Assembly: GCF_018499875.1 (NCBI RefSeq)
Contig: NZ_JAHBAY010000012.1
Location: 1 to 64,000 of the forward strand
DNA: 64,000 nt
Source of the DNA: Kineosporia corallincola
GTDB lineage: Bacteria > Actinomycetota > Actinomycetes > Actinomycetales > Kineosporiaceae
Reading direction: 5' to 3'
The notes under the pieces were generated by a model. That model ran no database searches. It was not told the DNA's origin and worked only from the letters and a program-made list of their open reading frames with translations. This document shows, in pieces, positions 39,458 through 61,273 of the stretch. Made by a program: the position numbers and the translations under genes. How positions within the stretch are numbered: position 1 is the first letter of the stretch; the number at the start of each line of letters is the position of its first letter.

Positions 39458-40291
39458 TCAGCCCCGGCGGCGCGCCACCTCCACCTGCTGACGGGCCTGC
39501 TGCTGCAACTCCGGCGTGAACCGCACCTCGCCGCCCTTGCCCGCGTACCGTCGTTCCACCTGGCCCGAGGTGCGCCGCAGAATGGTGACGCTGTTCTGCA
39601 TGAGCTTCTGCGACTCCAGCAGGTTCAGCACCTCCAGCTCGCCGGGGTGCGCCTTGCGCACCTCGTCGATGTAGTGCAGCACCGCCTCACCCTCGGGGTA
39701 GGTCATCAGGTAGTGCATGACCACCAGGCCGCCGTCCGGGTTGATCAGGTCCCAGAAGTGGTCGAAGAACCACAGGCACTCCCAGGCGTCGACCCAGGCC
39801 AGGTCGATCGGGCCGAAGCCGGCCGGGAGCAGCCCGATCGAGTCGCGCAGGTCGGCGTTCACCACCGCCACCAGGTCGTCGAGCCCGAGCCGGGCCAGCA
39901 CCTCGGAGGTGCGGGCCGCCGAGGACTCCTCGATCGAGAGGTTGTCGATCGCGACCAGGGACGGCCGGTACGGCTCCAGGTAGGAGGCCGGGGCCAGGAG
40001 CGGCGGCCGGTCGAGCAGCCACTCCTCGCCCAGCTCGCCGGACCGGGCCAGGTGGTGGCTGGTCTTCGCGGCGAGGGCGCTCTCCTCGGCGGCGGCCAGA
40101 CGCCGCTGGTCGGCCAGCGCCCCCGCCAGGAACGGCGTGGTGTAGCCCATCCCGACCTCGAGCACCCGTTCCGGCCGGAGCAGGGCGACCAGGTTGGCCA
40201 GGAACGGGCCGACCACCTCGGTGCCCATGCCGGGCACCTCCAGTCCGGCCACCGCCGAGCGGAACTCGGGACCATCAACGACGGACGTCAA
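39458..40291 (-). CDS. Class I SAM-dependent methyltransferase
   Basis: 277 residues from TTG 40291, with GGAGG just upstream; no ATG alternative lies nearby except at residue 22. Motif I is RVLEVGMGYTTPFLAGAL (about 39-56); the post-motif acidic site and motif IV are DLAWVDAWECLWFFDHFWDL with NPDGGLVVMHYLM. The carboxy part is helical and charged. It could methylate the hydroxymalonyl unit made by the nearby FkbHIJK enzymes, the job of FkbG, but it is not obviously FkbG-like and lies outside the main operon. Confidence 0.7.
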   Translation of the reverse strand: MTSVVDGPEFRSAVAGLEVPGMGTEVVGPFLANLVALLRPERVLEVGMGYTTPFLAGALADQRRLAAAEESALAAKTSHHLARSGELGEEWLLDRPPLLAPASYLEPYRPSLVAIDNLSIEESSAARTSEVLARLGLDDLVAVVNADLRDSIGLLPAGFGPIDLAWVDAWECLWFFDHFWDLINPDGGLVVMHYLMTYPEGEAVLHYIDEVRKAHPGELEVLNLLESQKLMQNSVTILRRTSGQVERRYAGKGGEVRFTPELQQQARQQVEVARRRG

Positions 40292-40326
40292 CGAACCTCC
40301 AGGGGCGCTGAAGCGACACGACGGGC

Positions 40327-40731
40327 TCAGGACGAGCTGACCGCCGCCACGACCTCGATCTCGATCACGGCGCCGTCCTTGAACAGCCGGGACACCTCGA
40401 CCGTGGTGCTGGTCGGGAGCGGCTCGGTCAGGTACTTGCCGCGGATCCGGGCGTACTCGGCCCGCTGGTTCATGTCGGTGAGGAAGGTGCGGATGTTCAC
40501 CACGTCGGCGAGCGTGGCCCCGTGCGCCTCGAGCAGCTGCCCCAGGGCGACGAACAGCGCCTCGCTCTGGGCCGCCATGTCACCGGGGAAGGCGGCATTC
40601 CCGTCCTCGTCGATCGCCACCTGACCGGAGACGAAAAGCATGGCCCCCGTGCCGAAATCGATGCGGGCGACCTGGGAGTAGGGACCCGCCGGGGCGGGTG
40701 CCCCGGCCGGATTGTCGATGGTTACCTTCAT
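40327..40731 (-). CDS. RidA/YjgF-family protein lacking the catalytic Arg
   Basis: 134 residues from ATG 40731, preceded by GAGGTG. The RidA fold is clear: AGPYSQVARIDFGTGAMLFV, SGQVAIDEDGN, LGQLLEAHGATLADVVNIRT and VEVSRLFKDGAVIEIEVVAA. In RidA enzymes an Arg before the last-but-one strand (form PxRS) grips the imine carboxylate. Here the segment is PLPTSTTVEV, with Ser in its place. Imine deamination as in true RidA is therefore unlikely. It lies 36 bp from the methyltransferase gene, so the two are probably co-transcribed. Confidence 0.85.
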   Translation of the reverse strand: MKVTIDNPAGAPAPAGPYSQVARIDFGTGAMLFVSGQVAIDEDGNAAFPGDMAAQSEALFVALGQLLEAHGATLADVVNIRTFLTDMNQRAEYARIRGKYLTEPLPTSTTVEVSRLFKDGAVIEIEVVAAVSSS

Positions 40732-40776
40732 GATCCGCACCTCGTCACTTGTGAACCATTGCATGTCGGGCAAACA

Positions 40777-40804
40777 TGGACAATAACGCCAACCGGGTCA
40801 TACT
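40777..40804 (+). promoter_or_regulatory. Candidate promoter of the LuxR-type regulator, leaderless
   Basis: TGGACA (40777-40782) and CATACT (40799-40804) are separated by 16 bp. Transcription would start at or next to the ATG at 40811, giving a leaderless mRNA. Confidence 0.4.
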
Positions 40805-40810
40805 TGCGCA

Positions 40811-41812
40811 ATGCACGATGATGCCGAGCGGCTCGCGGACCCGGCGCCGTGCGGGGCGGCCGGCTGCCCGAGCCCGGCCGGCCTGTGCGCCGCCGGCCGA
40901 CAGTACTACCGGCGCCGGGTCGAGACCGGTTCGGCAGGCGGCACGCCGGTCCCGCGCTGTCTCTCCGAACTCGGCCTGCTGGAACCGGATCCGGGCCGGC
41001 CCGGGCAGTTCACGCAGGTCACCCCGGTGGTCGCGCTGGACCGGCTGCTGCGGCCGCTCGAGCAGGAGTCCTCGGCCCTGCGCGGCCGGGCGATGGAGGT
41101 GCAGGCGGCGTTCGAGACCGTGGAGGAGATCTTCACCGACGCCCGCCGGAGCCGGCTGCCCCACCTCACCGTGCTGCGCGGACGCCGGACGATCGCCGAG
41201 ACCATCGACGCCGCGGCGGAATCCTGCCAGGAGGAGCTGCTCACCGCGCAGCCCGGGAACAAGCGTCCGCAGGAGATCCTCGACGAGGTCCTCGACCAGA
41301 ACCTCAGCCTGCTGCGGCGCGGTGTGCGCCAGCGCACGCTCTACCAGCACGCGGTCCGCTCCGACCAGCCGACCTTCCGCTACATCAGCGAGGTGGTGTC
41401 GGCCGGCGGCGACGTGCGCACCCTCGACGAGATGTTCGACCGGCTGGTCATCTGCGACCGCTCGGTGGCCTACATCCCCACCGGCCCGGCCTACGCCGAG
41501 GAGGCGCTCGAGGTGCGGCACCCGGCGATCGTCCGGTTTCTGGTGAACGTGTTCGAATTCGCCTTCAGCCGCGGCATCCCGGTGACGACGGAGTCACAGC
41601 GCCGGCCCTCCAGCGTGGTCAGCGACACCGAGAAGACGATCATGCGCCTGCTCGTGGAGGGGCAGACCGAGATCGCGATCGCCCGCAAGATGAGTATCAG
41701 CCGCCGCACGGTGGCCGAGTACGTCAGCCGCATCTCGCAGCGGCTCGGCAGCAACAGCCGCACCCAGCTCGGCTACCTGATGGCGGTCAACGGGCTGATC
41801 AAGGACGCCTGA
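40811..41812 (+). CDS. LuxR-type pathway regulator of the NRPS-PKS cluster
   Basis: 333 residues from ATG 40811. The C-terminal HTH (about 270-333) reads SDTEKTIMRLLVEGQTEIAI and RRTVAEYVSRISQRLGSNSR, a LuxR/GerE domain. The middle, SCQEELLTAQPGNKRPQEIL with ALEVRHPAIVRFLVNVFEFA, is a phospholipase D/TrmB-like effector domain often found in actinobacterial HTH regulators. It is the only dedicated regulator within the locus and converges on the operon end (14-bp overlap with the thioesterase gene), so it probably activates the minus-strand operon. Confidence 0.83.
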   Translation: MHDDAERLADPAPCGAAGCPSPAGLCAAGRQYYRRRVETGSAGGTPVPRCLSELGLLEPDPGRPGQFTQVTPVVALDRLLRPLEQESSALRGRAMEVQAAFETVEEIFTDARRSRLPHLTVLRGRRTIAETIDAAAESCQEELLTAQPGNKRPQEILDEVLDQNLSLLRRGVRQRTLYQHAVRSDQPTFRYISEVVSAGGDVRTLDEMFDRLVICDRSVAYIPTGPAYAEEALEVRHPAIVRFLVNVFEFAFSRGIPVTTESQRRPSSVVSDTEKTIMRLLVEGQTEIAIARKMSISRRTVAEYVSRISQRLGSNSRTQLGYLMAVNGLIKDA

Positions 41813-42563
41813 CGCCCACCCGCGCGATCTCCTCCGCCAGCGCCGCGGCCACCGCGGCCGCCTGGTCGAACAGGTAGAAGTGGCCGCCCTCCCAGACCCG
41901 GGAGCGGGGCGGGGCGGTGCTGTGCGTGTGCCACGGGCGCATCTGGACGGCGGTGGCCGCGGAGTCGCCGCCGGCCCGCCACACCGACAGCGGCACGTCG
42001 AGCGCCGGGCCGGGCCGGTACCGGTAGGTGTCGACCAGGGCCAGGTCGTCGCGGAGCACCCGGACCATCCGCTCGCGCAGGCCGGGCACGCTCAGCAGCG
42101 GGCCGGGAGTGCCCCCCAACCGGTTCATCAGGTCCACCAGGCGGTGCTCCGGCCACAGGTCGCGCCGCGCCCCGGGGCGCATCCCGGGCGCCGGGCTGGC
42201 CGAGACGCCGAGCCAGACCGGGGGTCGGCCGGCCGCGGCCAGGGCACGCACCAGCTCGAACCCGACGAGCGCCCCCATGCTGTGCCCGAAGAGCGCGTAC
42301 GGCCCGGACGACACCTCCCGCAGGTGCGGCAGCAGCCACCGCACCGCGTCGCCGCACCCGGTGAAGGCCACCTCGTCGTCCGCCGTGATCCGGCCCGGTA
42401 GCTCCACCCCGAGCACCCGCCAGTCCTCGGGCAGCAACCGGGCCAGCGGCAGGTAGCTGAGCGCCGAGCCGCCCGCGTGGTGCGCGAAAACCAGGGTCAT
42501 CGCCGGGTTTCCGGGATCCGGCCGGAGCTCGCGCAGCGGGGACGGCCCGGCGGTGGGACTCAC
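41799..42563 (-). CDS. Type II thioesterase
   Basis: 254 residues from GTG 42563 (GTGA overlap). An alpha/beta hydrolase that removes stalled or wrong acyl groups from carrier domains. It opens with LVFAHHAGGSALSYLPLARL, and the nucleophile elbow GHSMG has Ser95. The catalytic Asp is probably near VDTYRYRPG, and the His lies in GGHFYLF. It is the last gene of the operon. Since the assembly line ends in a reductase domain, this enzyme is for editing and not for product release. Confidence 0.92.
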   Translation of the reverse strand: MSPTAGPSPLRELRPDPGNPAMTLVFAHHAGGSALSYLPLARLLPEDWRVLGVELPGRITADDEVAFTGCGDAVRWLLPHLREVSSGPYALFGHSMGALVGFELVRALAAAGRPPVWLGVSASPAPGMRPGARRDLWPEHRLVDLMNRLGGTPGPLLSVPGLRERMVRVLRDDLALVDTYRYRPGPALDVPLSVWRAGGDSAATAVQMRPWHTHSTAPPRSRVWEGGHFYLFDQAAAVAAALAEEIARVGVRRP

Positions 42564-43534
42564 CCGCGAAACCGCCAGGCCGAGACCCCCCAGCTGAAGC
42601 CCATCCCGCTGCTGGCCAGCAGCACCAGGTCACCGGGGTTCAGCGCCTTGGCGTCGAGCAGGTCGTTCAGCGCGATCAGGGTGTCGGCCCCGCCCATGTG
42701 GCCGTACCGGTGGTAGTTGAGGACCGACCGCTCCCGCGGCAGGCCGAGTGCGTCCAGCAGGCGTTCGTGAATGTTCTTGTCCCCCTGGTTGAACAGGAGG
42801 TAGGCGACGTCGTCGAGCGTGGCGCCGACCGCTCGCAGGTTCTTCCCGACCAGCGCCGTCAGGTGCGTGAGGTAGGCCTCGGCCAGGCCCTTGCGCCGTC
42901 CCCGGCGCCGCATGAACACCTGGAACTCCTCGTGCTCGCCCTGGTAGTAGTCGGCCCAGGCGGGATCGGTGCTCAGCGCCGAGCTGAGGTACTGGAAACC
43001 GCTGCCGCCGCCGACGTCCCCCAGCAGCACCGCCGCCGGGGCGTCACCGAAGTTGAACAGCACCTTCGAGTCCGGGTCGGAGCGGTCGACCAGCCGGCTC
43101 AGCCGGTCCCCCACCAGGACCAGCACGAACCGGCTCTCCCCGGAGGCGATCTCGCGGACGCCGAGCCGCAGGGCCAGTGAGGCGGCGTTGCAGAAGTTCG
43201 TCACCTCGAAGCAGTGCGCGTCGTGGATGCCGAGCTCCAGGGCCGAGCGGGCCGCCGGGGACCAGAACGGCAGGTCCCACTCCCCCGACCCGGCGTAGAT
43301 CACCGTGCCGATCTCCGAGGGGCTGACGCCCTGCCGGTCCAGCACCTGACGGGCCGCCCGCACCGCCAGTTCCCAGGCCTGCTCACCGTCGGCCAGCACC
43401 GGGAACCGGTCGCAGTGGGTGATCGCGAGCAGGTCGGCGACCGGGACGCCGGACGTCTCGTGCAGCTCGGCCACGGTGACCTCCCCGGCCGGGAACGTCA
43501 CCGCGAAGTCCACGATCCCGGCCACGGGCGTCAC
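42560..43534 (-). CDS. KAS III-like acyltransferase/ketosynthase (first of two)
   Basis: 324 residues from GTG 43534 (GTGA overlap with the monooxygenase gene). Thiolase fold with nucleophile Cys115 in VTNFCNAASLAL. In FabH the Cys works with His (HQAN) and Asn (GNTSAA). Here these sites read NQGD and GHMGGADT: the His is replaced by Asn249, and His279 stands where the Asn should be. FabH-like proteins with changed triads often act as acyl transferases. Because the locus lacks AT domains, it may move the oxygenated malonyl unit between carriers. Confidence 0.8.
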   Translation of the reverse strand: MTPVAGIVDFAVTFPAGEVTVAELHETSGVPVADLLAITHCDRFPVLADGEQAWELAVRAARQVLDRQGVSPSEIGTVIYAGSGEWDLPFWSPAARSALELGIHDAHCFEVTNFCNAASLALRLGVREIASGESRFVLVLVGDRLSRLVDRSDPDSKVLFNFGDAPAAVLLGDVGGGSGFQYLSSALSTDPAWADYYQGEHEEFQVFMRRRGRRKGLAEAYLTHLTALVGKNLRAVGATLDDVAYLLFNQGDKNIHERLLDALGLPRERSVLNYHRYGHMGGADTLIALNDLLDAKALNPGDLVLLASSGMGFSWGVSAWRFRG

Positions 43535-44574
43535 CGGTTCCTCCCGGCGAGGGCGGCCAGCAGGGGCAGCCCCTCCATCACCGTCTTGGGAGCCAGCCCG
43601 AAATCGAGCAGGCAGGCGATCTCGTCGACGTCGATCCCGCGGAACCGGTCCACCACCCGCTGGGCCGAGTCCGGGGTGCCGAGCAGGCCGCCGTCGTCGA
43701 AGTACCGGTCGAACGAGCGGGCCACGATGAACTCGGTGTCCTCGGGCGAGAGCTCCTGCGGGGCGGTGGTTCTGCCGTTCAGCCCGGCGCCCAGCAGCAG
43801 GTGCAGCGATCCGCGCAGGTAGTCGCTCAGCGGCTCGCGCACCGCCTCCCGTGCCTCCCGGCCGTCCTCGTGCAGGTAGGTGTGCACCATCACCACGACG
43901 TGACCGGGCCAGCCGTCGGCGTCCGGGCGCTCGCGGACCGCCTGGCGGTACGCGGCGATCTTGACCGCCAGGTCGTCCACCTCCTGCCCGAGCAGGTGGG
44001 TGAGCAGCCCGGCACCGAGACGGCCCGCGTTGCGGAAGGTCTCGATCCCCCCGGCACTGGTCACCCAGATCGGCAGCTGCCGCTGCACGGGCGGCGGGAA
44101 GATGCCCACCCGGCTGGTCCGGCCGGCGCCGTCGGGCAGGTCGAGCTGTTCTCCACGCCACAGCCGGCGCACCTGCTCGATCTGCTCCAGCATGATCGCG
44201 CGGCGGTCCGGGTAGGCCTCGGGCCGGAGCACGAAATCGGTGGCGTGCCAGCCGGAGGCGAACGAGACGCCGACCCGGCCGCCGGACAGGTTGTCGATCA
44301 CCGACCAGTCCTCGGCCACCCGCAGCGGGTGGTGCAGGGGCGAGACCAGGCTGCCCGCGCGGATCTTCACCCGCTCGGTGATCGCCGCGACCGCGGCCGA
44401 GGTGACCGCCGGGTTGGGGTAGAGCCCGCCGAACGGGTGGAAGTGCCGTTCGGGCGTCCAGACGGCCTCGAACCCGTTCCGGTCGGCGAACCGGGCGCCG
44501 TCCATCAGCAGGCCGTACCGGTCCTCGGTGACCGCCTGGCTGTCGTTGGCGAAGTAGAAAAGACTGAAGTCCAC
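43531..44574 (-). CDS. Luciferase-like flavin monooxygenase (MupA/Atu3640 type)
   Basis: 347 residues from GTG 44574, with GGAGG upstream. A flavin-dependent TIM-barrel oxygenase that uses FMNH2. Strands read DFSLFYFANDSQAVTEDRYG, NGFEAVWTPERHFHPFGGLY, HHPLRVAEDWSVIDNLSGGR, VGVSFASGWHATDF and LPIWVTSAGGIETFRNAG, the set seen in monooxygenases embedded in NRPS clusters. These proteins hydroxylate amines or carbons of carrier-bound amino acids. The substrate here is unknown; an aminoacyl thioester on the stand-alone A domain's target PCP is a reasonable guess. Confidence 0.88.
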   Translation of the reverse strand: MDFSLFYFANDSQAVTEDRYGLLMDGARFADRNGFEAVWTPERHFHPFGGLYPNPAVTSAAVAAITERVKIRAGSLVSPLHHPLRVAEDWSVIDNLSGGRVGVSFASGWHATDFVLRPEAYPDRRAIMLEQIEQVRRLWRGEQLDLPDGAGRTSRVGIFPPPVQRQLPIWVTSAGGIETFRNAGRLGAGLLTHLLGQEVDDLAVKIAAYRQAVRERPDADGWPGHVVVMVHTYLHEDGREAREAVREPLSDYLRGSLHLLLGAGLNGRTTAPQELSPEDTEFIVARSFDRYFDDGGLLGTPDSAQRVVDRFRGIDVDEIACLLDFGLAPKTVMEGLPLLAALAGRNR

Positions 44575-44598
44575 GCGTCCCCTCCGGGATGGGTCGGG

Positions 44599-46164
44599 TC
44601 AGGATGTGGTCAGGAGCCGGCGCAGATGCCCCCGGTCGGCCTTGCCGTTGGCGTTCAGCGGCACGGCCTCCAGCCGGTGCAGCCGCCGGGGCACCATGTG
44701 CAGCGGAAGCCGGCGGCGCAGCCAGCGCCGCACGTCCCGGTCGGCCAGCTCGTCCCCGGTGTAGGCCGCGACCAGCTCGGTGCCCTCGCCCTCGCCGAGT
44801 GCGAGCACGATCGCCTGGCCCACCCCCGGGTGGGCACGCAGGGCCGCCTCGATCTCGCCCAGCTCGACCCGGAAGCCCCGGATCTTCACCTGGTTGTCGA
44901 GCCGCCCGAGGTGCAGCAGGGCACCCTCCACCTGCCGCACCCGGTCACCGGTGCGGTAGTAGTGCGCGGGGGTGAGGGGGGTGCGGCCGTCGTAGGGTTC
45001 CGCGCGGCCGTCCCGGAAGGCCAGGAACCGCCCGGTGTCGTCGGCCGGGTCGAGGTAGCCGCCGAACCGCTGCGAACCACGGACGCACAACTCGCCTTCG
45101 GCGGCCGGGTGGCCGTTCTCGTCGATCACGAGATGGTCGAGGAACGCATAGATCTCGCCGATCGGCACGGTGCCGTTGGCGGTCCGCGGCCAGTGCGAGC
45201 GCCGCGCCGGCAGCGTGTACTCGGAGCAGGCGACCGTGAGTTCCGTCGGGCCGTAGACGTTGTCGATCGCCGACCCGGGGGCCGCCCGGTGCCAGGCCCG
45301 CGCCTGGTCGAGCGTGAGCTGCTCGCCGATGAACGTGCTGTGCCGCAACGTCCCGGCCGCGTTCTCCGGCAGGCCGGACAGCTCGACGGCGACCGACACC
45401 ACCGACGGCACGCTGAACCAGTGCGTGATGCGCCGTTCCACCACGTAGTCGATCGGGGTGAGCAGGTCCCCGGCCGAGGGCACGCACAGCGTCGCTCCCC
45501 CGGCCCAGGTGACGAACAGGTCGAAGACCGAGGGGTCGAAGGTCAGGTCGAAGGTGTGCGACATCCGGCAACCGGGGCCCACGGCGTAGCGCCGCCGGTT
45601 GTGCTCGACGTACGGCGAGACGTTCCGGTGCGTGATCGGGACGCCCTTGGGCCGGCCGGTGGACCCGGACGTGAACAGCACGTACGCCAGATCGTCCGGC
45701 CGGCCACGGTACTCGCCCAGGAGGCGCTCCAGTTCCGGGTCCGGGGACGGGCCCGCCCCGGTGACGTCCTCGTCGGTCAGGAGCAGGGTGAGGACGCCGG
45801 CACCGGCCAGTTCCGCCTCCAGCTGGGGACGGCCGGCCGGATCGGCCAGCAGGACGTCGATCCGGGCCAGGTCGCACACCGAGCGGTTGCGGGCCGCCGG
45901 GTAGCCGGGGTTGAGCGGGGTCACGGCCGCGCCCAGCCGCAGCGCCGCGAGGTACCCGACGCAGGAGTGCGGACCCTGGCCGGCCAGCAGGGCCACCCGG
46001 GCGGGAACGCCGTCGTACGCCTGCCGGATCCGGGCGGCCAGAGCCGTTGCGGCAGCGTGCAACTCACCGTAGGTCAGGGTGTGCCCGGCGGCCTCCAGGG
46101 CCGGCGCGGCCGGGGTCGCGAGGGCGGACGCCGTGAACCACTCGTACAGCGTGCGGTCACTCAT
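44599..46164 (-). CDS. Stand-alone NRPS adenylation domain
   Basis: 521 residues from ATG 46164, overlapping FkbH by 8 bp. It activates an amino or hydroxy acid and loads a PCP in trans, as it has no carrier of its own. A3 LFTSGSTGRPKGVPITHRN, A5 NVYGPTELTVAC, A7 YYRTGDRVR, A8 GRLDNQVKIRGFRVELGEIE and A10 NANGKADRGHL are all present. The hand-read specificity positions D-P-F-W-T-I-V-V-A-K keep the Asp that binds the amino group but match no code I know. It probably serves the A-less C-PCP modules. Confidence 0.88.
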   Translation of the reverse strand: MSDRTLYEWFTASALATPAAPALEAAGHTLTYGELHAAATALAARIRQAYDGVPARVALLAGQGPHSCVGYLAALRLGAAVTPLNPGYPAARNRSVCDLARIDVLLADPAGRPQLEAELAGAGVLTLLLTDEDVTGAGPSPDPELERLLGEYRGRPDDLAYVLFTSGSTGRPKGVPITHRNVSPYVEHNRRRYAVGPGCRMSHTFDLTFDPSVFDLFVTWAGGATLCVPSAGDLLTPIDYVVERRITHWFSVPSVVSVAVELSGLPENAAGTLRHSTFIGEQLTLDQARAWHRAAPGSAIDNVYGPTELTVACSEYTLPARRSHWPRTANGTVPIGEIYAFLDHLVIDENGHPAAEGELCVRGSQRFGGYLDPADDTGRFLAFRDGRAEPYDGRTPLTPAHYYRTGDRVRQVEGALLHLGRLDNQVKIRGFRVELGEIEAALRAHPGVGQAIVLALGEGEGTELVAAYTGDELADRDVRRWLRRRLPLHMVPRRLHRLEAVPLNANGKADRGHLRRLLTTS

Positions 46165-47281
46165 GACCCACCCGCACCGGCGCCTGCCGCGCACCGGTCA
46201 GGTCGGGGGCGGTCAGCGTCATCGTGGTGGGCTCCGGCTGCCGGGTGGGCAGCACGTGCAGCACCTCGATGCCGTCGTCGGGCCGCCCGGTCACGGAAAC
46301 GGCCGTGCAGTCACAGGGTTCCGGGGTGAAGCCCGCGAACCGGTAGGCGACCTCCATCATCCGGTTGCGGTCGGTGCGCCGGAAGTCGGCGGTCAGGTGC
46401 ACCTGGGCGCGGGCCGCCTGGTCGAGCAGCCAGCGCAGCAGCACCGTGCCGGCCCCGAACGCCACCACCCGGCACGAGGTGGCCAGCAGCTTCAGGTGCC
46501 ATCTGTCCGGGAACCGTTCCAGCAGAACGATTCCCACCGCACCGTGGCCGCCGAACCGGTCGGACATGCTGGTCACGAGCACCTCGTGACGCGGGTCGTC
46601 GAGCAGGTCACGCAGGGCCGCGTCGGAGTAGTGCACGCCGGTCGCGTTCATCTGGCTGGTGCGCAGCGTGAGTTCCTCCACCCGGGCCAGGTCGGGCCCG
46701 GTCGCCCGGGCGATCCCCATGCCCAGGTCGAGCGTGCGCAGGAAGTCCTCGTCCGATCCCGGGAAGACCTCCCGGGCACCGGCCCGCTCGGCGTTGGCCC
46801 GGTACATCGCCCGCCGGTTGCGCGAGTCGGCCGTGACGATCGGCCGGAACTCCGGCCGGTCCAGCAGCCCGGCCAGGTCGGTGGCCGGGTAGCTGCGCAC
46901 CTCGGGCAGGTGGAAGGCCACCTCGGCGCGCTCGGTCGCCTGGTCGTCGACGAAAGCGAACGTGGACAGCGCCAGGTTCAGCCGGTCCGCGACGTGCCGC
47001 ACGGCCTCCGACTTCGGCCCCCAGCTGATCTGCGGCATCAGGAAGTACTCCTCCAGCCCCAGCTCCCGGAGCTTCTTCCAGGCCACCTCGTGGTCGTTCT
47101 TGCTGGCCACGGTCTGGAGGATGCCGCGCCGGTCCAGCTCGGCGACGACGGCCCGCACCTCCTGGCTCACGGCCACCTCGTCGCCCTCGGACAGGGTGCC
47201 CCGCCAGAGCGTGTTGTCCAGGTCCCAGACCAGGCACTTCACCGTCTTCGGGGCGCCGGTGGACGCGTTCAGATCTCCCAC
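46157..47281 (-). CDS. fkbH: FkbH-like glyceryl-ACP synthase
   Basis: 374 residues from GTG 47281 (13-bp overlap with the KAS III-like gene). A HAD-superfamily enzyme that takes 1,3-bisphosphoglycerate, dephosphorylates it and loads a glyceryl unit on an ACP. N-terminal HAD motif LVWDLDNTLW (about 17-26), later SKNDHEVAWKKLRELGLEEY, and FVDDQATERAEV (motif III region, about 89-100). The C-terminal part (about 180-330) is GNAT-like: RTSQMNATGVHYSDAALRDL and GHGAVGIVLLERFPDRWHLK. It is the first step towards hydroxymalonyl-ACP. Confidence 0.92.
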   Translation of the reverse strand: MGDLNASTGAPKTVKCLVWDLDNTLWRGTLSEGDEVAVSQEVRAVVAELDRRGILQTVASKNDHEVAWKKLRELGLEEYFLMPQISWGPKSEAVRHVADRLNLALSTFAFVDDQATERAEVAFHLPEVRSYPATDLAGLLDRPEFRPIVTADSRNRRAMYRANAERAGAREVFPGSDEDFLRTLDLGMGIARATGPDLARVEELTLRTSQMNATGVHYSDAALRDLLDDPRHEVLVTSMSDRFGGHGAVGIVLLERFPDRWHLKLLATSCRVVAFGAGTVLLRWLLDQAARAQVHLTADFRRTDRNRMMEVAYRFAGFTPEPCDCTAVSVTGRPDDGIEVLHVLPTRQPEPTTMTLTAPDLTGARQAPVRVGHE

Positions 47282-49403: not shown

Positions 49404-49668
49404 CCTCTCCCCCGGTCAGTCTCAGCACCAGGGCGGTCATCGCCCCGACCGTGCGGAAGTTGTCCAGCCGGATGTCGTTGCCGGTCACCGCCACCCCGAA
49501 CGTGCTCTCCAGGTGCACCAGCAGCTCCAGGGCGAAGAGCGAGGTGACCAGCCCGGAACCGAACAGGTCCAGGTCGGGTGCGACGGTCTGCCGGGTGCGC
49601 TGCTCGAGGAACCCGATCAGGTTCGCGGCGACCGTGTCGGCGGTGATCCCGCCGGTGAAGGTGGTCAT
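49396..49668 (-). CDS. fkbJ: FkbJ-like discrete acyl carrier protein
   Basis: 90 residues from ATG 49668 (ATGA overlap with fkbK). The phosphopantetheine Ser43 lies in LFGSGLVTSLFALELL, the exact variant of the carrier motif (usually DSL) found in methoxymalonyl-type ACPs. It carries the glyceryl, then hydroxymalonyl, thioester. Encoded between fkbI and fkbK, a conserved sub-operon. Confidence 0.93.
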   Translation of the reverse strand: MTTFTGGITADTVAANLIGFLEQRTRQTVAPDLDLFGSGLVTSLFALELLVHLESTFGVAVTGNDIRLDNFRTVGAMTALVLRLTGGEDD

Positions 49669-54043: not shown

Positions 54044-57000
54044 TCGGCAGCCCCCGAGACGGTGGTGACCGGGGTGGCGGCAGGGTTCGTGACGGGGTTG
54101 GTGGCGGCGGCCCCGCGGCCGAGCAGGCGGCTGCGGTCAGGGGTGGCGCGAACCACCTGACCGGTCCCGTCGGCCCCGTCGATCCCGTCGGCCCCGTCGG
54201 CCGGTGACAGCAGCTCGACCTGCGCCCGCACCGTGCTGTGCTGGAACAGGTCCGAGACCTTGATCGGGCGGGCGCTGAGCGGCCGCAGCTCCTCCCACAG
54301 CATGATCAGCAACAGCGAACTGCCGCCCGACTCCAGGAATTTCGCGTCGTCCGGCACCGTCTGGGCCGGGTCCAGGTCGAGCACCTCGGTCCAGGCCCGG
54401 CGCACCGACTCGGTCAGGTCCGCCCGGCTGGGGACCGTTCCCGCCGGGGTGACTGCGTTCTGGCCACCTGCGTTCTGCATCGTGCTCTCCTGAAGGGGGT
54501 GCGAGGTCGGATCGGACGACAGGGCCCGGGCCACCGCGACCAGCTCACCGAGCAGCGCGGTGGCGGTGTCCGGATCGAAAAGGTGCACGGCGTAAGACAG
54601 GTCGAGCTCCAGGTGGTCTCCCAGATCGGTGACCACCAGCTCCAGTTCGTGCTTGATGTGCAGCGGGTCGAGGGGCCGGTAGCGACCCCCGGTCCGGGGG
54701 CCGAGCGCCGCCGGCACGTCGCGGCCCTCCTGCACGCTCAGGTAGACCGGGGTCAGCGGGGGACGGCTCAGGTCCCGTTCCGGGTGCAGCGCCGCCACCA
54801 CCTCGTCGAACGGCACACCGGCGTGCCGGAAGGCGAAGGTGCCGCTCTCCCGCACCCGGCCCAGGAGCCGCGGCCAGGACGGGTCGCCGGTCAGGTCCAC
54901 CCGCAGCACCAGCGTCTCGACGAACATCCCGATCGCCTCCGCCTGCGCGGCGGTGTCCCGCCCGGCCCAGGGGAAGGCGAGGAGGAAGTCACGCTGCCGG
55001 CCACGCCGGGCCAGCACGGTGGCCAGCAGCGCCGCCGACGTCATGAAGAGCGTGGCCCCGGCCCGCGTCGCGGCCTCCCGCAGCCCGGCGGTGGTCGTGG
55101 CGTCGATCCGGGCCGTGACGGAACCGGCCAGGGTGTGCTGCACCTCGCCGCGTTCCCGGTCGGCCGGCAGTTCGACGTCGACCGGGGCACTGCCCAGCCG
55201 GGCCACGACCTGCTCCAGCGCGGCGCGGTCCGGCGCCGTCCCCGGCTCCCGTCGTGGCCCCGGCGCAGCGGGCTCCGCAACGGTCTCCCCGCGGTAGCGG
55301 GCGGCGATCTCCTCCACCAGCAGCCGCCGCGACCAGCCGTCGACGACGATGTGGTGTGCCACCAGCACCAGCAGGGTCTGCTCACCGCGGCGTAGCAGTT
55401 CGGCCCGCACCGGCGGGCCGGTCGCCAGATCCATCGCCTCCCAGCAGAATTCGGCCAGGTGCTCACGCAGCTCGGCGTCGCTCCAGGCGCTCGCGTCGAC
55501 GGTCCCGGCCCGGGCCGGGGCGGCGTCGGTGCGCAGGCAGACCTGCCGCAGCCGCCGGTCCAGGTGGAACCGGGCCCGCAGCACCGGGTGCCGGGCGAGC
55601 ACGTCGTCGACGGCTCGGCGCAGCGCGCCGGCATCGACCGGCCCGGTGTACTCGATCACCGAGGGCAGCAGGTAGGCCGCCCGGTGGGACGGCAGCCGGT
55701 CGAGTGTCCAGAACCGGGCCTGGACCGGGTCGGCCGGCCGCGGAGCGGACGGATCATGCTGCGGTGCCGGCACTTCCGGCGCCCCCGGCGAATCCGGGAC
55801 GACCGGCGAGTCCGGGACGACCGCGGCCCGGTGCAGGAGCTCGGCCAGGTGGGCGACCGTCGGCTCGGCGAGGAAGTCGCGCGGGGTGACCACCACGCCC
55901 CGGCGCCGCTGGGCCTCGGCCAGCATGCTGATGACCAGCAGCGACTGCCCCCCGGCGGTGAAGAAGTCCGAGTCCGGGGCCAGCCGGGCCGGGCTCCCCG
56001 GCAGTACCGCCGCGAAAAGCTCCTCGGCCTGCGCGTAGTCGGATGCCTCATAGCGCTTCCCGGTCACCGCCGGGCCCGCCCCGGACGTCACCGCACGCAC
56101 GTTCCCCACCGGGACGGGGCCCGCGGGCAGGTCACCGACCACCCGGTCCGGGTCCGCCGTCACCTCCTCCAGCAGCCGCACGAAGCCCGCACCCAGCTCG
56201 TCCACCACGGCCGCCGGGTAACGGTCGGTGTCGTGCTCGATGGTCAGGACCGCACCGGACGCGGTCTCGTCGAGCATGAGCAGGAGGTCGAACTTGGCCG
56301 TGCCGGTGCCCAGCACCACCGGCCGGCGCCAGGGCGAGGTCTCCTCGTCCCAGGCCGGGGCCACCATGTTCTGGAGGACGAACCCGACGTCGGCCGGGGC
56401 CAGGCGGCCCTCACCCCGCAGCGCCGCGATCCGCGCGGTCAGCCGGTCGAACGGCAGCCTCTGGTACGACAGCGCACCGTAGAACTCGGCCCGGGCCGCC
56501 GCGCAGAGCTGCCGGAACGTCGCCCCGGGCACGACCCGGCAGCGCAACGGCACGGTGTTGACGAAGAACCCGACCAGCGGTGCCAGATCGGTCTCGGCCC
56601 GGTTGGCCGTCATCACCCCGAGCAGGAAGTCCCGCCGCCCGGAACGCCGGGCCACCAGCACCTCGACCACCGTGGAGAGCAGCACGAACGGCGTGACCCG
56701 CAGCGAACGGGACCGTTCGGCCACGGCCTCCCAGACCGGTGACGGCACCTCGAAGCCGCGGTGCGCCCCCGGCCGGGCCCCGTCGGGAGCGGCGGGACGC
56801 CCGGAGCAGCCGGCCAGCACCGGTCCCCCGGCGAGCGGGGCCAGCACCGCGGCCCTCTCCTGGAGCGCGGTGGCGATCTCCGGTGACCGCGCCACCTCCT
56901 GCTCCCGCAGCGCGAAATCGGCGTACTGCAAGGGAAGTTCCGCGAACTGCGGGTCACGGCCGGCCAGGAGCGCCCGGTAGGCGACGGTGAGGTCCCCGAA

Positions 57001-57444
57001 CAACGGGGCCAGCGACCAGCCGTCGACCGCGATGTGGTGCACACTCAGCAGCACGGTGTCCGGTCCGGTGTCCCCGCTCCAGACCACGGCCCGCAGCACC
57101 TGCCCGTCGGCCGGCGAGAGGGGCCGGGCCGCGAGCGTCCCGCAGTCGTCGAGGGCCCGGGCCGGCACGTCGTCACCGGCGGGCACGTCGATGCGCAGAA
57201 CCTCGATCACCGGCCGGTCCATGACCTGCTGCACCGGCGCCCCGTCCACCAGGCGGTAGCGGGTGCGGAGGATCTCGTGCCGGGTCGCGACCGACTCCAG
57301 CGCGCCCGCCAGCACCGTCGGGTCGACCGGCACCCGGGCCGTGAACAGCAGCGGCACGTTGTAGGTGGGGTTGCCGGGTGCGGCGGCGTCGGTCAGCCAG
57401 ACCCGCAGCTGGGCACTCGAGAGGGGAGCCTCCCGGGCGCTCAC
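54040..57444 (-). CDS. NRPS: C-PCP-C-PCP without adenylation domains
   Basis: 1134 residues from GTG 57444 (GTGA overlap with the A-PCP gene). C1 (about 8-440): LSSAQLRVWLTDA, catalytic SVHHIAVDGWSLAP. PCP1 (about 460-540): DFFTAGGQSLLVI. C2 (about 565-985): PVQARFWTLDRLPSHR, AHHIVVDGWSRRLL. PCP2 (about 1030-1100): KFLESGGSSLLLI. Both HHxxxDG motifs are intact. With no A domain, each PCP must be charged in trans, most simply by the stand-alone A domain; the monooxygenase may act on these amino acids. It should form two peptide bonds after the Val-like starter. Confidence 0.92.
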   Translation of the reverse strand: MSAREAPLSSAQLRVWLTDAAAPGNPTYNVPLLFTARVPVDPTVLAGALESVATRHEILRTRYRLVDGAPVQQVMDRPVIEVLRIDVPAGDDVPARALDDCGTLAARPLSPADGQVLRAVVWSGDTGPDTVLLSVHHIAVDGWSLAPLFGDLTVAYRALLAGRDPQFAELPLQYADFALREQEVARSPEIATALQERAAVLAPLAGGPVLAGCSGRPAAPDGARPGAHRGFEVPSPVWEAVAERSRSLRVTPFVLLSTVVEVLVARRSGRRDFLLGVMTANRAETDLAPLVGFFVNTVPLRCRVVPGATFRQLCAAARAEFYGALSYQRLPFDRLTARIAALRGEGRLAPADVGFVLQNMVAPAWDEETSPWRRPVVLGTGTAKFDLLLMLDETASGAVLTIEHDTDRYPAAVVDELGAGFVRLLEEVTADPDRVVGDLPAGPVPVGNVRAVTSGAGPAVTGKRYEASDYAQAEELFAAVLPGSPARLAPDSDFFTAGGQSLLVISMLAEAQRRRGVVVTPRDFLAEPTVAHLAELLHRAAVVPDSPVVPDSPGAPEVPAPQHDPSAPRPADPVQARFWTLDRLPSHRAAYLLPSVIEYTGPVDAGALRRAVDDVLARHPVLRARFHLDRRLRQVCLRTDAAPARAGTVDASAWSDAELREHLAEFCWEAMDLATGPPVRAELLRRGEQTLLVLVAHHIVVDGWSRRLLVEEIAARYRGETVAEPAAPGPRREPGTAPDRAALEQVVARLGSAPVDVELPADRERGEVQHTLAGSVTARIDATTTAGLREAATRAGATLFMTSAALLATVLARRGRQRDFLLAFPWAGRDTAAQAEAIGMFVETLVLRVDLTGDPSWPRLLGRVRESGTFAFRHAGVPFDEVVAALHPERDLSRPPLTPVYLSVQEGRDVPAALGPRTGGRYRPLDPLHIKHELELVVTDLGDHLELDLSYAVHLFDPDTATALLGELVAVARALSSDPTSHPLQESTMQNAGGQNAVTPAGTVPSRADLTESVRRAWTEVLDLDPAQTVPDDAKFLESGGSSLLLIMLWEELRPLSARPIKVSDLFQHSTVRAQVELLSPADGADGIDGADGTGQVVRATPDRSRLLGRGAAATNPVTNPAATPVTTVSGAAE

Positions 57445-59285
57445 GCGGCCCGCACCGTGGTCCGGACCCGCGTGCACAGGTCGGCCAGCGTGTCGGCGAG
57501 CAGCACCTCGGCGGCGTCCACCGGACTGCTCAGGCCGTCCTGGATCCGCGCGGCCACCTGCATCGCGAGGATCGAGTTGCCGCCCAGGTCGAGGAAGTTG
57601 TCGGCGGCGCCGATCCGGCTCACCCCCAGCACGTCCCGCCAGGCGGTGGCCACCACGTCGTCCACCTCGTCGGCCGGCCCCTCCGGGGCCGCGGCGGCCA
57701 CCGGTCCCACCGACACCGGCGACCCCACCGGCGGTTCCGGTTCGAGCAGCGCCAGCAGGGCGGCCCGGTCGGTCTTGCCGGTGGGCCCGATCGGCAGACG
57801 CTCCAGGAACAGCCAGCGCGAGGGCAGCATGTAGGCCGGCAGCCGGGTGGTCAGCTCGCCGGTCAGGGTCTGCGCCCGCAGCACCGTTCCCGGCGCCGGC
57901 AGCGCGAACCCGGCCAGGACCGCGGCCGGCCCTTCGCCGACCTTCTCGACGAAGGCTGTGTCGACGAGACCCGTTGCCACGGCGGCCCGTTCGATCTCCT
58001 CGAGCTCGATCCGGAACCCGCGCAGCTTCACCTGCCGGTCGCGGCGTCCCAGCACCTCGAACACGCCGTCCCCCGTCGTCCTGGCCAGATCACCGGTGCG
58101 GTAGACCATGTCGCCGGTTCCGGGCCGGGTGACGAACTTCTCGGCCGTGAGCTCGGGGCGCCCCAGGTATCCCAGCGCCAGCCCCGGGCCGCCGACGCAC
58201 AGTTCGCCGAGCTCGCCGTCGGGCACCGGGGCGAGCCGCTCGTCGAGCACGTGCAGGCTGGTCTGCTGCAACGGGCGGCCGACCGGGATCCGGTCCAGCC
58301 CGGCCGTGCTCCGGTCGTTACAGTCGAAATAGGCCGCGAACGTGGTGGTCTCGGTCGGACCGTACCCGTTCACCAGGCGTCCCGGCGGGCCGGCCGCCAG
58401 CACCCGGCGCACCGCGCCGAGCTCCAGCTGCTCCCCGCCCACCACGAGCGTCCCCAGTCGGGAGAACGCGCCGGGACGCTCGCGGGCCAGTGTGTGGAAC
58501 AGCGAGGTGGTCAGGAACAGCGCGTCCAGGCGCTCGGCGCGGGTCAGCCCGATCCAGTCGTCGAGCGGCAGGTCGCCGAACCCCGGCAGCACGACCACCG
58601 TCCCGCCGGCGATCAGGGCGTTCCAGATCTCGAAGGTGGTGGCGTCGAAGGCCGGGTTGGCCGCGTTGCCCACCCGGTCGCCCGCCTCGATCGTGCAGAA
58701 CAGCGGGTCGACCGCGAGGCGGCGCACGGCCCGGTGCGGAACCACGACGCCCTTGGGACGGCCGGTCGAGCCCGAGGTGAACGCCACGTAGGCCGGATCG
58801 CCGGGGGCGGGATCGGGCCCGCCGTAAGCGTCTTCGCCCTCGCCGGCGAACTCCGGGGCCTCCACCACGGTCAGGTCGGGCAGGCGCTCGCGCCACCCGG
58901 ACGGGTCGGGCACGGAGCGCGGGGCGCACACCGCCACCCGCACACCGGAGTCCTGGAGGATGCCGGCCAGCCGGTCGGCCGGCGCCATCGCGTCGAGCGG
59001 CAGGTAGGCCGCACCGGCCCGGAGGATCCCGAGCAGGGTGACGACCAGCGAGACCGAGCGGTTCTGGGCCACCGCCACCAGGTCCGAGGGCCGCACACCC
59101 ACCTCGTTCAGCCCGGCGGCCAGCCGGCCCGCCCGGAGCCAGAGTTCCCGGTAGTTCAGGGTCTCGCCGGTCAGCGGATCGCGGACGGCGGGGGCGTCCG
59201 GCCGCCGGACGGCCCAGCGACCGACCAGGGCGGGGACCGCGGTTTCCGGATCCGGCCGGTCCAGGGGCGTGCCGAGGTGTTCCAC
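57441..59285 (-). CDS. NRPS initiation module: A-PCP, Val-like specificity
   Basis: 614 residues from GTG 59285, with GGAGGAA upstream; first gene of the operon. A domain: FTSGSTGRPKGVVVPHRAV (A3), NPAFDATTFEIWNALIAGG (A4), VNGYGPTETTTFAAY (A5), VYRTGDLAR (A7), GRRDRQVKLRGFRIELEEIE (A8), GPTGKTDRAAL (A10). PCP: DNFLDLGGNSILAMQ. The hand-read code D-A-F-F-V-G-G-T-F-K is close to the published Val code (DAFWIGGTFK) and to Ile variants. It starts the chain with Val or a similar aliphatic residue; no C domain or lipid-loading domain precedes it. Confidence 0.92.
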   Translation of the reverse strand: MEHLGTPLDRPDPETAVPALVGRWAVRRPDAPAVRDPLTGETLNYRELWLRAGRLAAGLNEVGVRPSDLVAVAQNRSVSLVVTLLGILRAGAAYLPLDAMAPADRLAGILQDSGVRVAVCAPRSVPDPSGWRERLPDLTVVEAPEFAGEGEDAYGGPDPAPGDPAYVAFTSGSTGRPKGVVVPHRAVRRLAVDPLFCTIEAGDRVGNAANPAFDATTFEIWNALIAGGTVVVLPGFGDLPLDDWIGLTRAERLDALFLTTSLFHTLARERPGAFSRLGTLVVGGEQLELGAVRRVLAAGPPGRLVNGYGPTETTTFAAYFDCNDRSTAGLDRIPVGRPLQQTSLHVLDERLAPVPDGELGELCVGGPGLALGYLGRPELTAEKFVTRPGTGDMVYRTGDLARTTGDGVFEVLGRRDRQVKLRGFRIELEEIERAAVATGLVDTAFVEKVGEGPAAVLAGFALPAPGTVLRAQTLTGELTTRLPAYMLPSRWLFLERLPIGPTGKTDRAALLALLEPEPPVGSPVSVGPVAAAAPEGPADEVDDVVATAWRDVLGVSRIGAADNFLDLGGNSILAMQVAARIQDGLSSPVDAAEVLLADTLADLCTRVRTTVRAA

Positions 59286-59566
59286 GCGATTCCTCCAGAG
59301 GCTTCGATCACCCGGCGGGCGGGCGGCACGGAAATCTGGAAATGACGAAGAGGGAGCCGGCCGGACGAACGCCGGAAATCAACGGACCGCACCGGACGGA
59401 AATTCAGGAATTCAGCGAGAACCCCAGCCGTGGTCGGCCATCGTGTTCAGCCGGGCGGACGATTGAGATCCCTCGAAGGACGCACCCATTCGTTCGGGAA
59501 ACAGGCACGGCGGCGCACCTGGAAGCATCTGTTCATTCCCCCAGAACTCAACGTTTGCAACGGGCC

Positions 59567-59582
59567 GTGTCAAAGCTGACAC
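59567..59582. promoter_or_regulatory. Operator-like inverted repeat GTGTCA-N4-TGACAC
   Basis: GTGTCA (59567-59572), AAGC, TGACAC (59577-59582): perfect 6-bp arms. It lies 282 bp upstream of the NRPS operon start. It is a candidate site for the LuxR-type regulator at 40811 or an unlinked one. Confidence 0.55.
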
Positions 59583-59814
59583 CCACGGTCACATCCGAGC
59601 AAGAGCGGCACTCCGCACGTTGATGCACTGCACAAGTGCGTACAACTCAGACAAAACGGTCATGATCAATGGAATGGTCGGTGACACAGCGAGTTTGATG
59701 ATCCACACATGGCCATCTCGCGCCGCCGGCGACGGACCCGGCCGATCGGCCACCGTCGATCACGGCCCGCAATCTTCACCGTTCGTTCAACGTCCCGCAG
59801 ACCACGCGCCAACG

Positions 59815-59842
59815 TTGACATAACCGGACAATCCACTACGCT
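59815..59842 (+). promoter_or_regulatory. Promoter of the MFS exporter
   Basis: TTGACA (59815-59820), 16-bp spacer, TACGCT (59837-59842). Predicted start near 59849 gives a leader of about 110 nt before ATG 59960. Confidence 0.65.
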
Positions 59843-59959
59843 CCTTCGTGGCCTTCCGCTCTCCGGAAGCCCTTCCCCTCCCGTCCGCCCAACCGCCCGT
59901 CCGGTTCTGCCGGAAATTCGGCGCAGGTCGTCCCCGAGCGAATCAGGCGAGGTATCCAG

Positions 59960-61273
59960 ATGGTCGGAACAGACCGCATCGGCACGACGCTGCGGACGTG
60001 GTTCGGCGAACTCGTCCCGGCCCGCGGCCCGGCCCGTCGGCTCGCCGTGCTGACGATCGTGCAGTCCACCGGCTACGGCCTCTTCCTGACCTCGAGCGCG
60101 ATCTTCTTCCGCGAGACGATCGGGCTCAGCACCACCCAGGTCGGCCTGGGGCTGTCGATCGCCGGTCTCGCCGGGCTGCTCCTCACCGTGCCGATCGGGC
60201 GCCTCGCCGACCGGTTCGGGGCCCGGCGGCCGCTGTTCGCCCTCTACGCCGCGCTGATCGTGCTGTTCACCGCCTACTGCGGGGTGACGAACTTCGCCGG
60301 CTTCGTGCTGGTCGCCAGCCTCATCTCGATCTGTGAGACGTCGGTGACCCCGCTGCGTGCCACCCTCACCCACGAGCTGTTCCCGCCCGAGGACCGGGTG
60401 CGGGTCAGCGCCCAGATGCGCAGCCTGCTCAACGTCGGATTCATGGCCGGCGCGGCCGGGGCCGGGGCGGCACTGGCCGTCGGCACCCGCTCTGCCTTCA
60501 TCGCGGTGGTGCTGCTCTCCGCCCTCGGCCACGCGTTCTGCGCCGTGATCGTGTGGCGCCTGGAGCCGGGGCCCGTCCGGGAACCGGTCGCCCCGCATCC
60601 CCACCAGAACCGTTCCGGCCTGCGCGATCTGCGGTTCGTCGGGCTCGCCCTGCTGGCCGGGGTGCTGGAGTTCTACCAGCCGATCCTCACCGTGGCCCTG
60701 CCCCTGTGGATCGTCACCCGCACCGACGCGCCCAACTCGGTGAACGCGGTGATCCTCATGCTCGACACCGTTCTGGTCATCCTGCTCCAGGTCGCCGCCA
60801 GCCGCGGGGCCGAGACCGTGCCCGGCGCCGCCCGCATGCTGCGCCGCTCCGGCCTGGTGCTGGCCCTGTCCTGCGCCGTCTTCGCCACCACGCAGGGTGC
60901 CTCGGCCGCGGTCGCGATCCCGGTTCTGCTGATCGGCACGGTGGTGCTGGTGGTGGGCGAGCTGAGTCAGGCCGCGGGTTCGTGGGGCCTGGCCCTGCAC
61001 CTGCCGCCCCCTGGCAAACAGGGTGAGTACCAGGGGGTCTTCGCCCTGGGCCGCGGCCTCCAGCAGACCACCGGGCCGGCCGTCGTCACCTTCCTGGCCG
61101 TGTCCCAGGGCTGGTGGGGCTGGCTGGTGCTGGGCGTACTGCTGGCCGCCGCCGGGCTGGCCTGCCCGCCGCTCACCCGCTCGGCCCAGGCCGCCCTGGC
61201 CGGCGCCGCTCCGCTCCCGCCGACCCCCAGCCCGGCGGGAGCCGGTGGCACGGCCCCCGAAACCGGCGTCTGA
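59960..61273 (+). CDS. MFS exporter of the cluster product (probable)
   Basis: 437 residues from ATG 59960, with GCGAGG upstream. About 12 TM segments. Motif A reads GRLADRFGARRPLFALYAAL, and the second half resumes near GLALLAGVLEFYQPILTVAL. The N-terminus LAVLTIVQSTGYGLFLTSSA is typical of small drug exporters. It is divergent from the NRPS operon and shares its regulatory region, which supports product export or self-resistance. The C-terminus is Pro/Gly-rich. Confidence 0.85.
   Translation: MVGTDRIGTTLRTWFGELVPARGPARRLAVLTIVQSTGYGLFLTSSAIFFRETIGLSTTQVGLGLSIAGLAGLLLTVPIGRLADRFGARRPLFALYAALIVLFTAYCGVTNFAGFVLVASLISICETSVTPLRATLTHELFPPEDRVRVSAQMRSLLNVGFMAGAAGAGAALAVGTRSAFIAVVLLSALGHAFCAVIVWRLEPGPVREPVAPHPHQNRSGLRDLRFVGLALLAGVLEFYQPILTVALPLWIVTRTDAPNSVNAVILMLDTVLVILLQVAASRGAETVPGAARMLRRSGLVLALSCAVFATTQGASAAVAIPVLLIGTVVLVVGELSQAAGSWGLALHLPPPGKQGEYQGVFALGRGLQQTTGPAVVTFLAVSQGWWGWLVLGVLLAAAGLACPPLTRSAQAALAGAAPLPPTPSPAGAGGTAPETGV

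Follow-up and report, generated by a model that had tools for sequence, protein, structure and literature searches.

The loading of extender units onto polyketide synthases (PKSs) is described, in excerpts of a review (PMC6164871), as the task of acyltransferases (ATs) acting in cis or in trans. Acyl transfer is also carried out by proteins of the KASIII fold, as the available parts of two papers report: ChlB3, with a Cys113-His296-Asp301 site, moves 6-methylsalicylyl between carrier proteins, and CerJ, with the same kind of site, transfers malonyl (PMC9573744), and the KASIII-like AfcL, with Cys, His, and Asp, carries a peptidyl chain bound to itself and shuttles the peptide (PMC12186527). 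We analyzed a stretch of 64,000 nucleotides from the actinobacterium Kineosporia corallincola (contig NZ_JAHBAY010000012.1, positions 1 to 64,000, referred to here as the window), which holds a nonribosomal peptide synthetase (NRPS)-PKS operon with an AT-less ketosynthase (KS) module, genes for an extender bound to an acyl carrier protein (ACP), and a KASIII-like protein that we call KAS3a. We propose that KAS3a (47269-48258) is likely to do the work of the missing AT, moving hydroxymalonyl from an FkbJ-type ACP to the PKS ACP, and our best reading of related loci is that elsewhere it moves aminomalonyl likewise. Gene set, domains, catalytic triad, AT absence, and co-occurrence, on which this proposal is built, are direct observations.

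The operon and its AT-less module

An earlier annotation made from the sequence of the window (the original prediction) had described a 12-gene operon with FkbH, FkbI, FkbJ, and FkbK, and open reading frames (ORFs) together with Pfam and NCBIfam domain calls, with family cut-offs applied, confirm it on the minus strand at 41799-59285. Most of the 12 genes overlap by a few bases or are separated by tiny gaps, and from 59285 to 41799 they follow the order of these lines:

57441..59285, minus strand: NRPS adenylation-thiolation (A-T) didomain, the first module (Pfam AMP-binding and PP-binding)
54040..57477, minus strand: NRPS protein C-T-C-T (C, condensation) without A domains of its own (Pfam Condensation and PP-binding only)
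50555..54043, minus strand: AT-less PKS module, KS-ACP-thioester reductase (Pfam)
49665..50558, minus strand: FkbK-like protein of the 3-hydroxyacyl-CoA dehydrogenase (HCDH) family (Pfam 3HCDH_N and 3HCDH)
49396..49668, minus strand: FkbJ-like free ACP, the proposed extender carrier (PP-binding, sequence)
48255..49403, minus strand: FkbI-like protein of the acyl-CoA dehydrogenase (ACAD) family (Pfam Acyl-CoA_dh)
47269..48258, minus strand: KAS3a, protein of predicted KASIII fold with Cys121-His286-Asp291 (PF08541)
46157..47281, minus strand: FkbH glyceryl transferase/phosphatase (TIGR01686, 332.7 bits against a cut-off of 146.65)
44599..46194, minus strand: stand-alone A domain (AMP-binding without PP-binding)
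43531..44574, minus strand: luciferase-like monooxygenase of the MupA/Atu3671 family (TIGR04020, 474 bits against a cut-off of 244.45)
42560..43534, minus strand: KAS3b, a second KASIII-like protein, directly after the monooxygenase (PF08541 and PF08545)
41799..42563, minus strand: type II thioesterase (PF00975)

The PKS protein comprises a KS (residues 6-383), a region of KS-AT linker families (397-501), an ACP (684-745), and a reductase (795-1028). Pfam found no AT (PF00698) in it, including between residue 501 and the ACP start at 684, and the linker families PF22336 and PF22621 are present above cut-off, with PF16197 below, so that the original prediction of an AT region lost between retained linkers is borne out. 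The reductase passed PF07993 and scored 209.4 bits with TIGR01746, just under the cut-off of 213.35. The KS keeps Cys183, His318, and His358, and the ACP keeps Ser711.

A profile built from 22 ATs found no AT anywhere in the 64-kb window, and PF00698 has just two matches in the whole assembly (8.2 Mb, 97% complete), both free FabD-like ORFs outside the cluster; the operon's KS is the assembly's one type I KS at E <= 1e-20. No discrete AT-family protein dedicated to the module was thus found in the cluster or the genome beyond these two FabD-like ATs, and the original claim that the operon has no AT-family gene of its own holds genome-wide. Its wider wording, a cluster with no acyltransferase, stands for the AT family and probably fails for the function, for which KAS3a is the candidate. 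One of the FabD-like genes (L001:1399-2391, contig C17 of the same genome) adjoins a response-regulator-like gene, and the other adjoins FabH.

FkbH, a free ACP, an ACAD, and an HCDH together make up the full hydroxymalonyl-ACP (FkbH-K) set. FkbH would make glyceryl-S-FkbJ, which FkbK and FkbI would oxidize to hydroxymalonyl-S-FkbJ, as in known FkbH-K pathways. Cys121 of KAS3a, activated by His286 and Asp291, would accept hydroxymalonyl without decarboxylation and hand it to the ACP within the KS-ACP-reductase protein. There the KS would condense it with the incoming NRPS peptide, and an aldehyde or alcohol would be freed by the reductase. Substrate, direction of transfer, and product are what we infer in this scheme.

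KAS3a across actinobacterial loci

A search with KAS3a yielded 25 loci in other actinobacteria, with Streptomyces, Amycolatopsis, Actinokineospora, and Micromonospora among the hosts. Among 297 genomes from the family to which Amycolatopsis sp. WAC 01376 belongs, 32 carry KAS3a, in 38 places, 16 of these places being close (E < 1e-150) and 22 distant (E of about 1e-65 to 1e-83). None was found at E <= 1e-20 in 57 further genomes drawn from the genus, family, and order of the window, and the cluster is therefore untypical of the kin of Kineosporia. Nine repeat loci (L044, L045, L081-L084, L086, L160, and L164) were dropped before counting, leaving 55 distinct loci with the window included; near-copies among the loci are L024/L026, L063/L065, L075/L077, and L088/L089. 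Two database records call for comment. The near-identical loci L024 and L026 come from metagenome-assembled genomes placed in different families (Hamadaea and Streptomyces) and probably represent one organism binned twice. The record of L006, "Rhodococcus rhodnii NRRL B-16535" (12.4 Mb), has a locus and flanks matching those of L004 from Kibdelosporangium aridum, and its name looks wrong; this genome also appears in the Amycolatopsis-family scan.

Cys121, His286, and Asp291 are invariant in the 55 KAS3a sequences, as are Arg89 and Arg159. The position of the FabH Asn is occupied in all 55 by the triad His, and that of the FabH His by Gln in 52, while the genome's own FabH keeps its Cys, His (HQAN), and Asn. 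An AlphaFold2 model of KAS3a (predicted local distance difference test score, 87.9) has a predicted fold for which Foldseek returned FabH, ChlB3, DpsC, and CerJ at E values of about 1e-18 to 1e-20, with 22-24% identity in the alignments to ChlB3 and CerJ. Among the matches, PDB 3t5y is by its title CerJ with malonic acid on its Cys. By analogy with the ChlB3, CerJ, and AfcL families, the loss of the FabH condensing pair and retention of the transferase triad lead us to expect that KAS3a would transfer rather than condense. The original prediction was silent on the two KASIII-like genes and named no candidate for the transfer.

In the counts that follow, a KS was counted above 120 bits, an AT was taken as beside a KS within 3 kb, and ATs were sought with the 22-member profile, in which the genome's two FabDs are included. 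Controls were drawn from 49 FkbH matches in 16 KAS3a-bearing genomes, all from a single family scan: 15 adjoin KAS3a, 2 are halves of a split gene (G199), and 32 were taken as control loci. Four with FkbH under 100 bits by phmmer (L141, L142, L143, and L145) were dropped, and 10 of the 28 usable controls have no KS, leaving 18 for comparison. An AT stands beside the KS nearest KAS3a in none of the 45 KAS3a loci with a detected KS (of 55), compared with 17 of the 18 FkbH loci without KAS3a; in the sole AT-less control, L118, the KS lies at a contig end. Fisher's exact test gives a p of 1.8e-14 for this contrast and of 1.9e-10 when it is confined to complete FkbH, ACAD, and HCDH sets (0/31 versus 13/14), although both values are too small because the loci share ancestry and are less independent than the test supposes. 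Blindness to ATs is not the cause of the zeros, since the same profile finds ATs in the control loci.

The partner PKS proteins differ in architecture. AT-less KS-ACP-reductase proteins accompany KAS3a, with a reductase domain in 27 loci; for L026 the contig holds the ACP-reductase end only. An AT-less KS-KR-ACP-C protein (KR, ketoreductase; L043:7092-12215, in the genome of L025) is associated with an aminomalonyl-type set, and L071, L074, and L063 have KS-ACP-C-containing proteins. No AT was found in the seven partner proteins examined by Pfam. The ACP serine motif lies upstream of the reductase in all 27 reductase-type loci, both active-site His motifs are present in 45 of 45 partner KSs, and the Cys motif is present in 43. 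Judging from these retained motifs, the modules look active.

Several observations beyond the shared ancestry of the loci weigh against assigning extender transfer to KAS3a. The comparison is uneven, as the nearest KS was considered for KAS3a loci and any KS for controls; under the "any KS" rule, L021 has an AT beside the KS of a second PKS. Four of the 55 stretches hold an AT somewhere, in other PKS genes (L021, L075, L077, and L092), and for 10 KAS3a loci the stretch read yields no KS that exceeds 120 bits. L092 belongs to genome G204, where the cassette and a PKS gene with an AT are separated by about 9 kb; farther off on this contig, at about 31 kb, is a two-KS protein in which no AT was found over the 10.3 kb read. 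In G129, hydroxymalonyl genes and an AT-less KS adjoin a discrete AT (L168, G129:C38:18001-33000), with a distant KAS3a (L069) about 16 kb beyond that AT, and this cluster may hold both kinds of transferase. Within the proteins themselves, His stands at the FabH His position in 2 of 55 KAS3a sequences and Pro in 1, and the Cys motif was not found in the partner KSs of L068 and L079. Extender genes also vary: seven of the 55 loci have none in the stretches read (L024, L062, L066, L067, L090, L091, and L094), and two have ACAD/HCDH only (L021 and L061). Among these, L090 and L091 have a KS-ACP-reductase, an FkbJ-like ACP, and KAS3a, with no FkbH, FkbI, FkbK, or seryl ligase found in the stretches read, and elsewhere in the genome of L091 (G286) is an FkbK-J-I-H cassette (L120), for which the stretch read shows no KS. 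Finally, gene neighborhood alone does not separate extender transfer from transfer of a peptide chain.

Extender cassettes and alternative roles for KAS3a

FkbH is near KAS3a in 41 of the 55 loci, in 11 of which sequence 10-18 kb away was read. In five others (L017, L025, L026, L027, and L085) a seryl-[carrier protein] ligase homologue takes its place, joined by an ACAD, an HCDH, and an ACP in L017, L025, L027, L045, and L085, the set of L026 having been read in L045, a longer piece of the same genome. The aminomalonyl-ACP set of zwittermicin consists, in the portion of the paper available, of the seryl-AMP synthetase ZmaJ, the ACP ZmaH, and the ACAD ZmaI (PMC6395733), and the seryl-ligase sets beside KAS3a would likewise make aminomalonyl-ACP. 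The 16 genomes have eight seryl-ligase places; the two strongest were examined, and these sets, L165 (G313) and L170 (G086), have no adjoining KAS3a and sit beside KS-AT proteins. Mapped onto the KAS3a tree, the aminomalonyl label has to change three times, and well supported branches force two or more of these changes, with bootstraps that are not fully settled. It is thus probable that KAS3a and the AT-less KS remained paired through more than one replacement of the extender cassette. A third type of ACP-bound extender is perhaps represented in L091 (G286), where glyoxalase/HPPD-like and aminotransferase genes (L091:6539-8913) lie between the KS-ACP-reductase gene and those of the FkbJ-like ACP and KAS3a. 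As a separate observation, FkbH, an FkbI-like ACAD, an HCDH, and an ACP occur in L120 (G286) and L127 (G301) in stretches where neither a KS nor an AT was found, and these extender cassettes may work in trans.

We consider it reasonably probable, if less so than the role proposed for KAS3a in the window, that in a whole group of actinobacterial NRPS-PKSs the chain-extension AT has given way to KASIII-fold cysteine enzymes of a separate lineage, serving at least three AT-less architectures and two ACP-bound extenders (hydroxymalonyl and aminomalonyl), with the cassette exchanged at least two times and the transferase kept.

The original prediction had left two ways to use the FkbJ-bound unit, directly by the KS or through transfer by another protein, and the comparison of loci favors another protein, KAS3a, over direct use. 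Were the KS to condense directly with FkbJ-bound hydroxymalonyl, as its lack of an AT would allow, KAS3a could be doing other work, such as moving the peptide or the elongated chain, for which the KASIII-like peptidyl carrier and transferase AfcL offers a precedent in the part of its description available (PMC12186527). We regard this as unlikely, since the module's own ACP serine motif is kept in 27 of 27 reductase-type loci and the presence of KAS3a tracks the absence of ATs across unlike NRPS contexts. Two split clusters bear on the same point. In L004 (Kibdelosporangium aridum) and L006, genes for A-T, FkbK, FkbJ, FkbI, KAS3a, and FkbH lie between two DNA ligase genes, and the AT-less KS-ACP-reductase is on a separate contig, where NRPS genes and a stand-alone A domain accompany it. 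Because KAS3a stays with the extender genes, away from the KS, these genomes suggest that it handles the extender.

Other enzymes could be credited with the transfer. No AT-family proteins other than the FabDs were found in the genome, and a fatty-acid FabD might supply the PKS ACP, either with plain malonyl or with the unit bound to FkbJ; we hold this to be very unlikely, as both FabDs carry the charged form RVR(X)5GAFH, and an RXR-type positively charged motif is typical of CoA-dependent ATs according to excerpts of PMC4207774. Loading by FabD would also leave unexplained both the retention of the hydroxymalonyl genes and the pairing of KAS3a with an AT-less KS in all 45 loci where a KS was detected. 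KAS3b lies within the operon and keeps Cys-His-Asp in 10 of 10 sequences, as a transferase would, but it was found in just 10 KAS3a stretches out of 55, some of which are cut short, and loci with no KAS3b in view also have AT-less KSs. It is therefore no general explanation of such KSs, and that KAS3b rather than KAS3a is the transferase seems highly improbable. We give the least credence to the building of a tetronate or other ring from glyceryl-ACP by FkbH, an ACP, and a KASIII protein, as proposed for tetromadurin with the FkbH-like Mad7, the ACP Mad8, and the FabH-like Mad16 (PMC7489565, in part). FkbH, a free ACP, and a FabH-like protein do occur together here, and Foldseek lists the tetronate enzyme AbyA1 at rank 43 for the KAS3a model. 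Against ring formation, the oxidizing enzymes FkbI and FkbK are present, KAS3a is kept in five loci with a seryl ligase and no FkbH in view, the FabH condensing Asn is replaced in KAS3a and the His nearly always so, and the chain is released by a reductase. Transfer of the extender by KAS3a thus remains the role that we prefer.

Product, neighboring genes, and known systems

The stand-alone A domain (44599..46194) probably loads the T domains of the C-T-C-T protein in trans. A-T and C-T-C-T would make a short peptide, which one hydroxylated C2 unit would lengthen, and the product released by the reductase would be a gamma-amino-beta-keto-alpha-hydroxy aldehyde or alcohol, possibly cyclized. 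The A-T didomain (57441..59285) has homologues with 51-62% identity in the loci closest to that of the window. The span given in the original prediction, 39458-61273, also covers the following genes, which flank the operon:

39458..40291, minus strand: methyltransferase-like protein (PF13578, 25.9 bits, just under the cut-off of 26.3)
40327..40773, minus strand: RidA-family protein (PF01042)
40811..41812, plus strand: LuxR-type regulator (PF00196)
59960..61273, plus strand: exporter of the major facilitator superfamily (MFS; PF07690)

Among related loci, a homologue of the LuxR regulator occurs in L005 only, RidA-family homologues lie near the cluster in L008, L016, L020, and L087, and homologues of the MFS exporter occur within related clusters. 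The methyltransferase-like gene, a sub-threshold match, is about 6 kb from the nearest FkbH-K gene and has homologues in L005, L008, L016, L017, L020, L085, and L087. Where the original prediction had allowed a hydroxy- or methoxymalonyl unit, methoxymalonyl is the less likely of the two because this sole methyltransferase-like gene also flanks the aminomalonyl-type loci L017 and L085 and so has no exclusive link with the hydroxymalonyl genes.

Were KAS3a to act as proposed, AT-less modules that seem incomplete or dependent on a borrowed FabD would have a specific partner that could readily pass for a starter ketosynthase. Hydroxymalonyl and aminomalonyl units would have a small stand-alone transferase working from ACP to ACP, and KAS3a together with an AT-less KS would be a simple marker for apparently uncharacterized actinobacterial clusters.

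Among the matches listed from open-licence literature, none describes a pathway in which FkbH-K and an AT-less KS occur with a reductase and a KASIII-like protein, and none describes a KASIII-fold enzyme that loads extender units; the statement of the original prediction that no characterized pathway could be recognized agrees with this. Two candidate matches were set aside on the parts of their papers available. The foxicin cluster has FkbH with AT-containing modules (PMC5318452), and among the Phytohabitans clusters the FkbH-bearing PKS/NRPS has KS/AT and the AT-less cluster is anthracimycin-like (PMC7692728).

With the FkbH-K sets of FK520, zwittermicin, and tetromadurin, the window shares FkbH, the ACP, the ACAD, and the HCDH. 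It differs from the control loci without KAS3a, in which full FkbH-K sets adjoin AT-containing PKSs in all but one of those with a KS. Like trans-AT type I PKSs, it has a KS-ACP module without a cis AT and with linker remnants; unlike them, its cluster lacks a discrete AT-family gene, the FabDs being the only ones in the genome. The reaction proposed for KAS3a is that of ZmaA-AT, ZmaF, and OzmC, which are ATs for hydroxymalonyl-, aminomalonyl-, and methoxymalonyl-ACP in the passages available (PMC4207774 and PMC6164871), but those are serine enzymes of the AT fold, whereas KAS3a is a cysteine enzyme of predicted KASIII fold. In that fold and in its Cys-His-Asp residues it resembles CerJ, ChlB3, SfaN, and AfcL as partly available descriptions present them (PMC9573744 and PMC12186527), and its His-Asp spacing of five residues is that of ChlB3 (PMC9573744). 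These excerpts describe acyl transfer without C-C bond formation, as we propose for KAS3a, with different cargoes and destinations: CerJ moves malonyl to a sugar, ChlB3 an aryl group between carriers, SfaN a starter, and AfcL a peptide, and KAS3a would move an extender to an elongating module. Hydroxymalonyl sets, AT-less modules, and KASIII-fold acyltransferases are each already known, and it is the use of such a transferase for chain extension that looks new.

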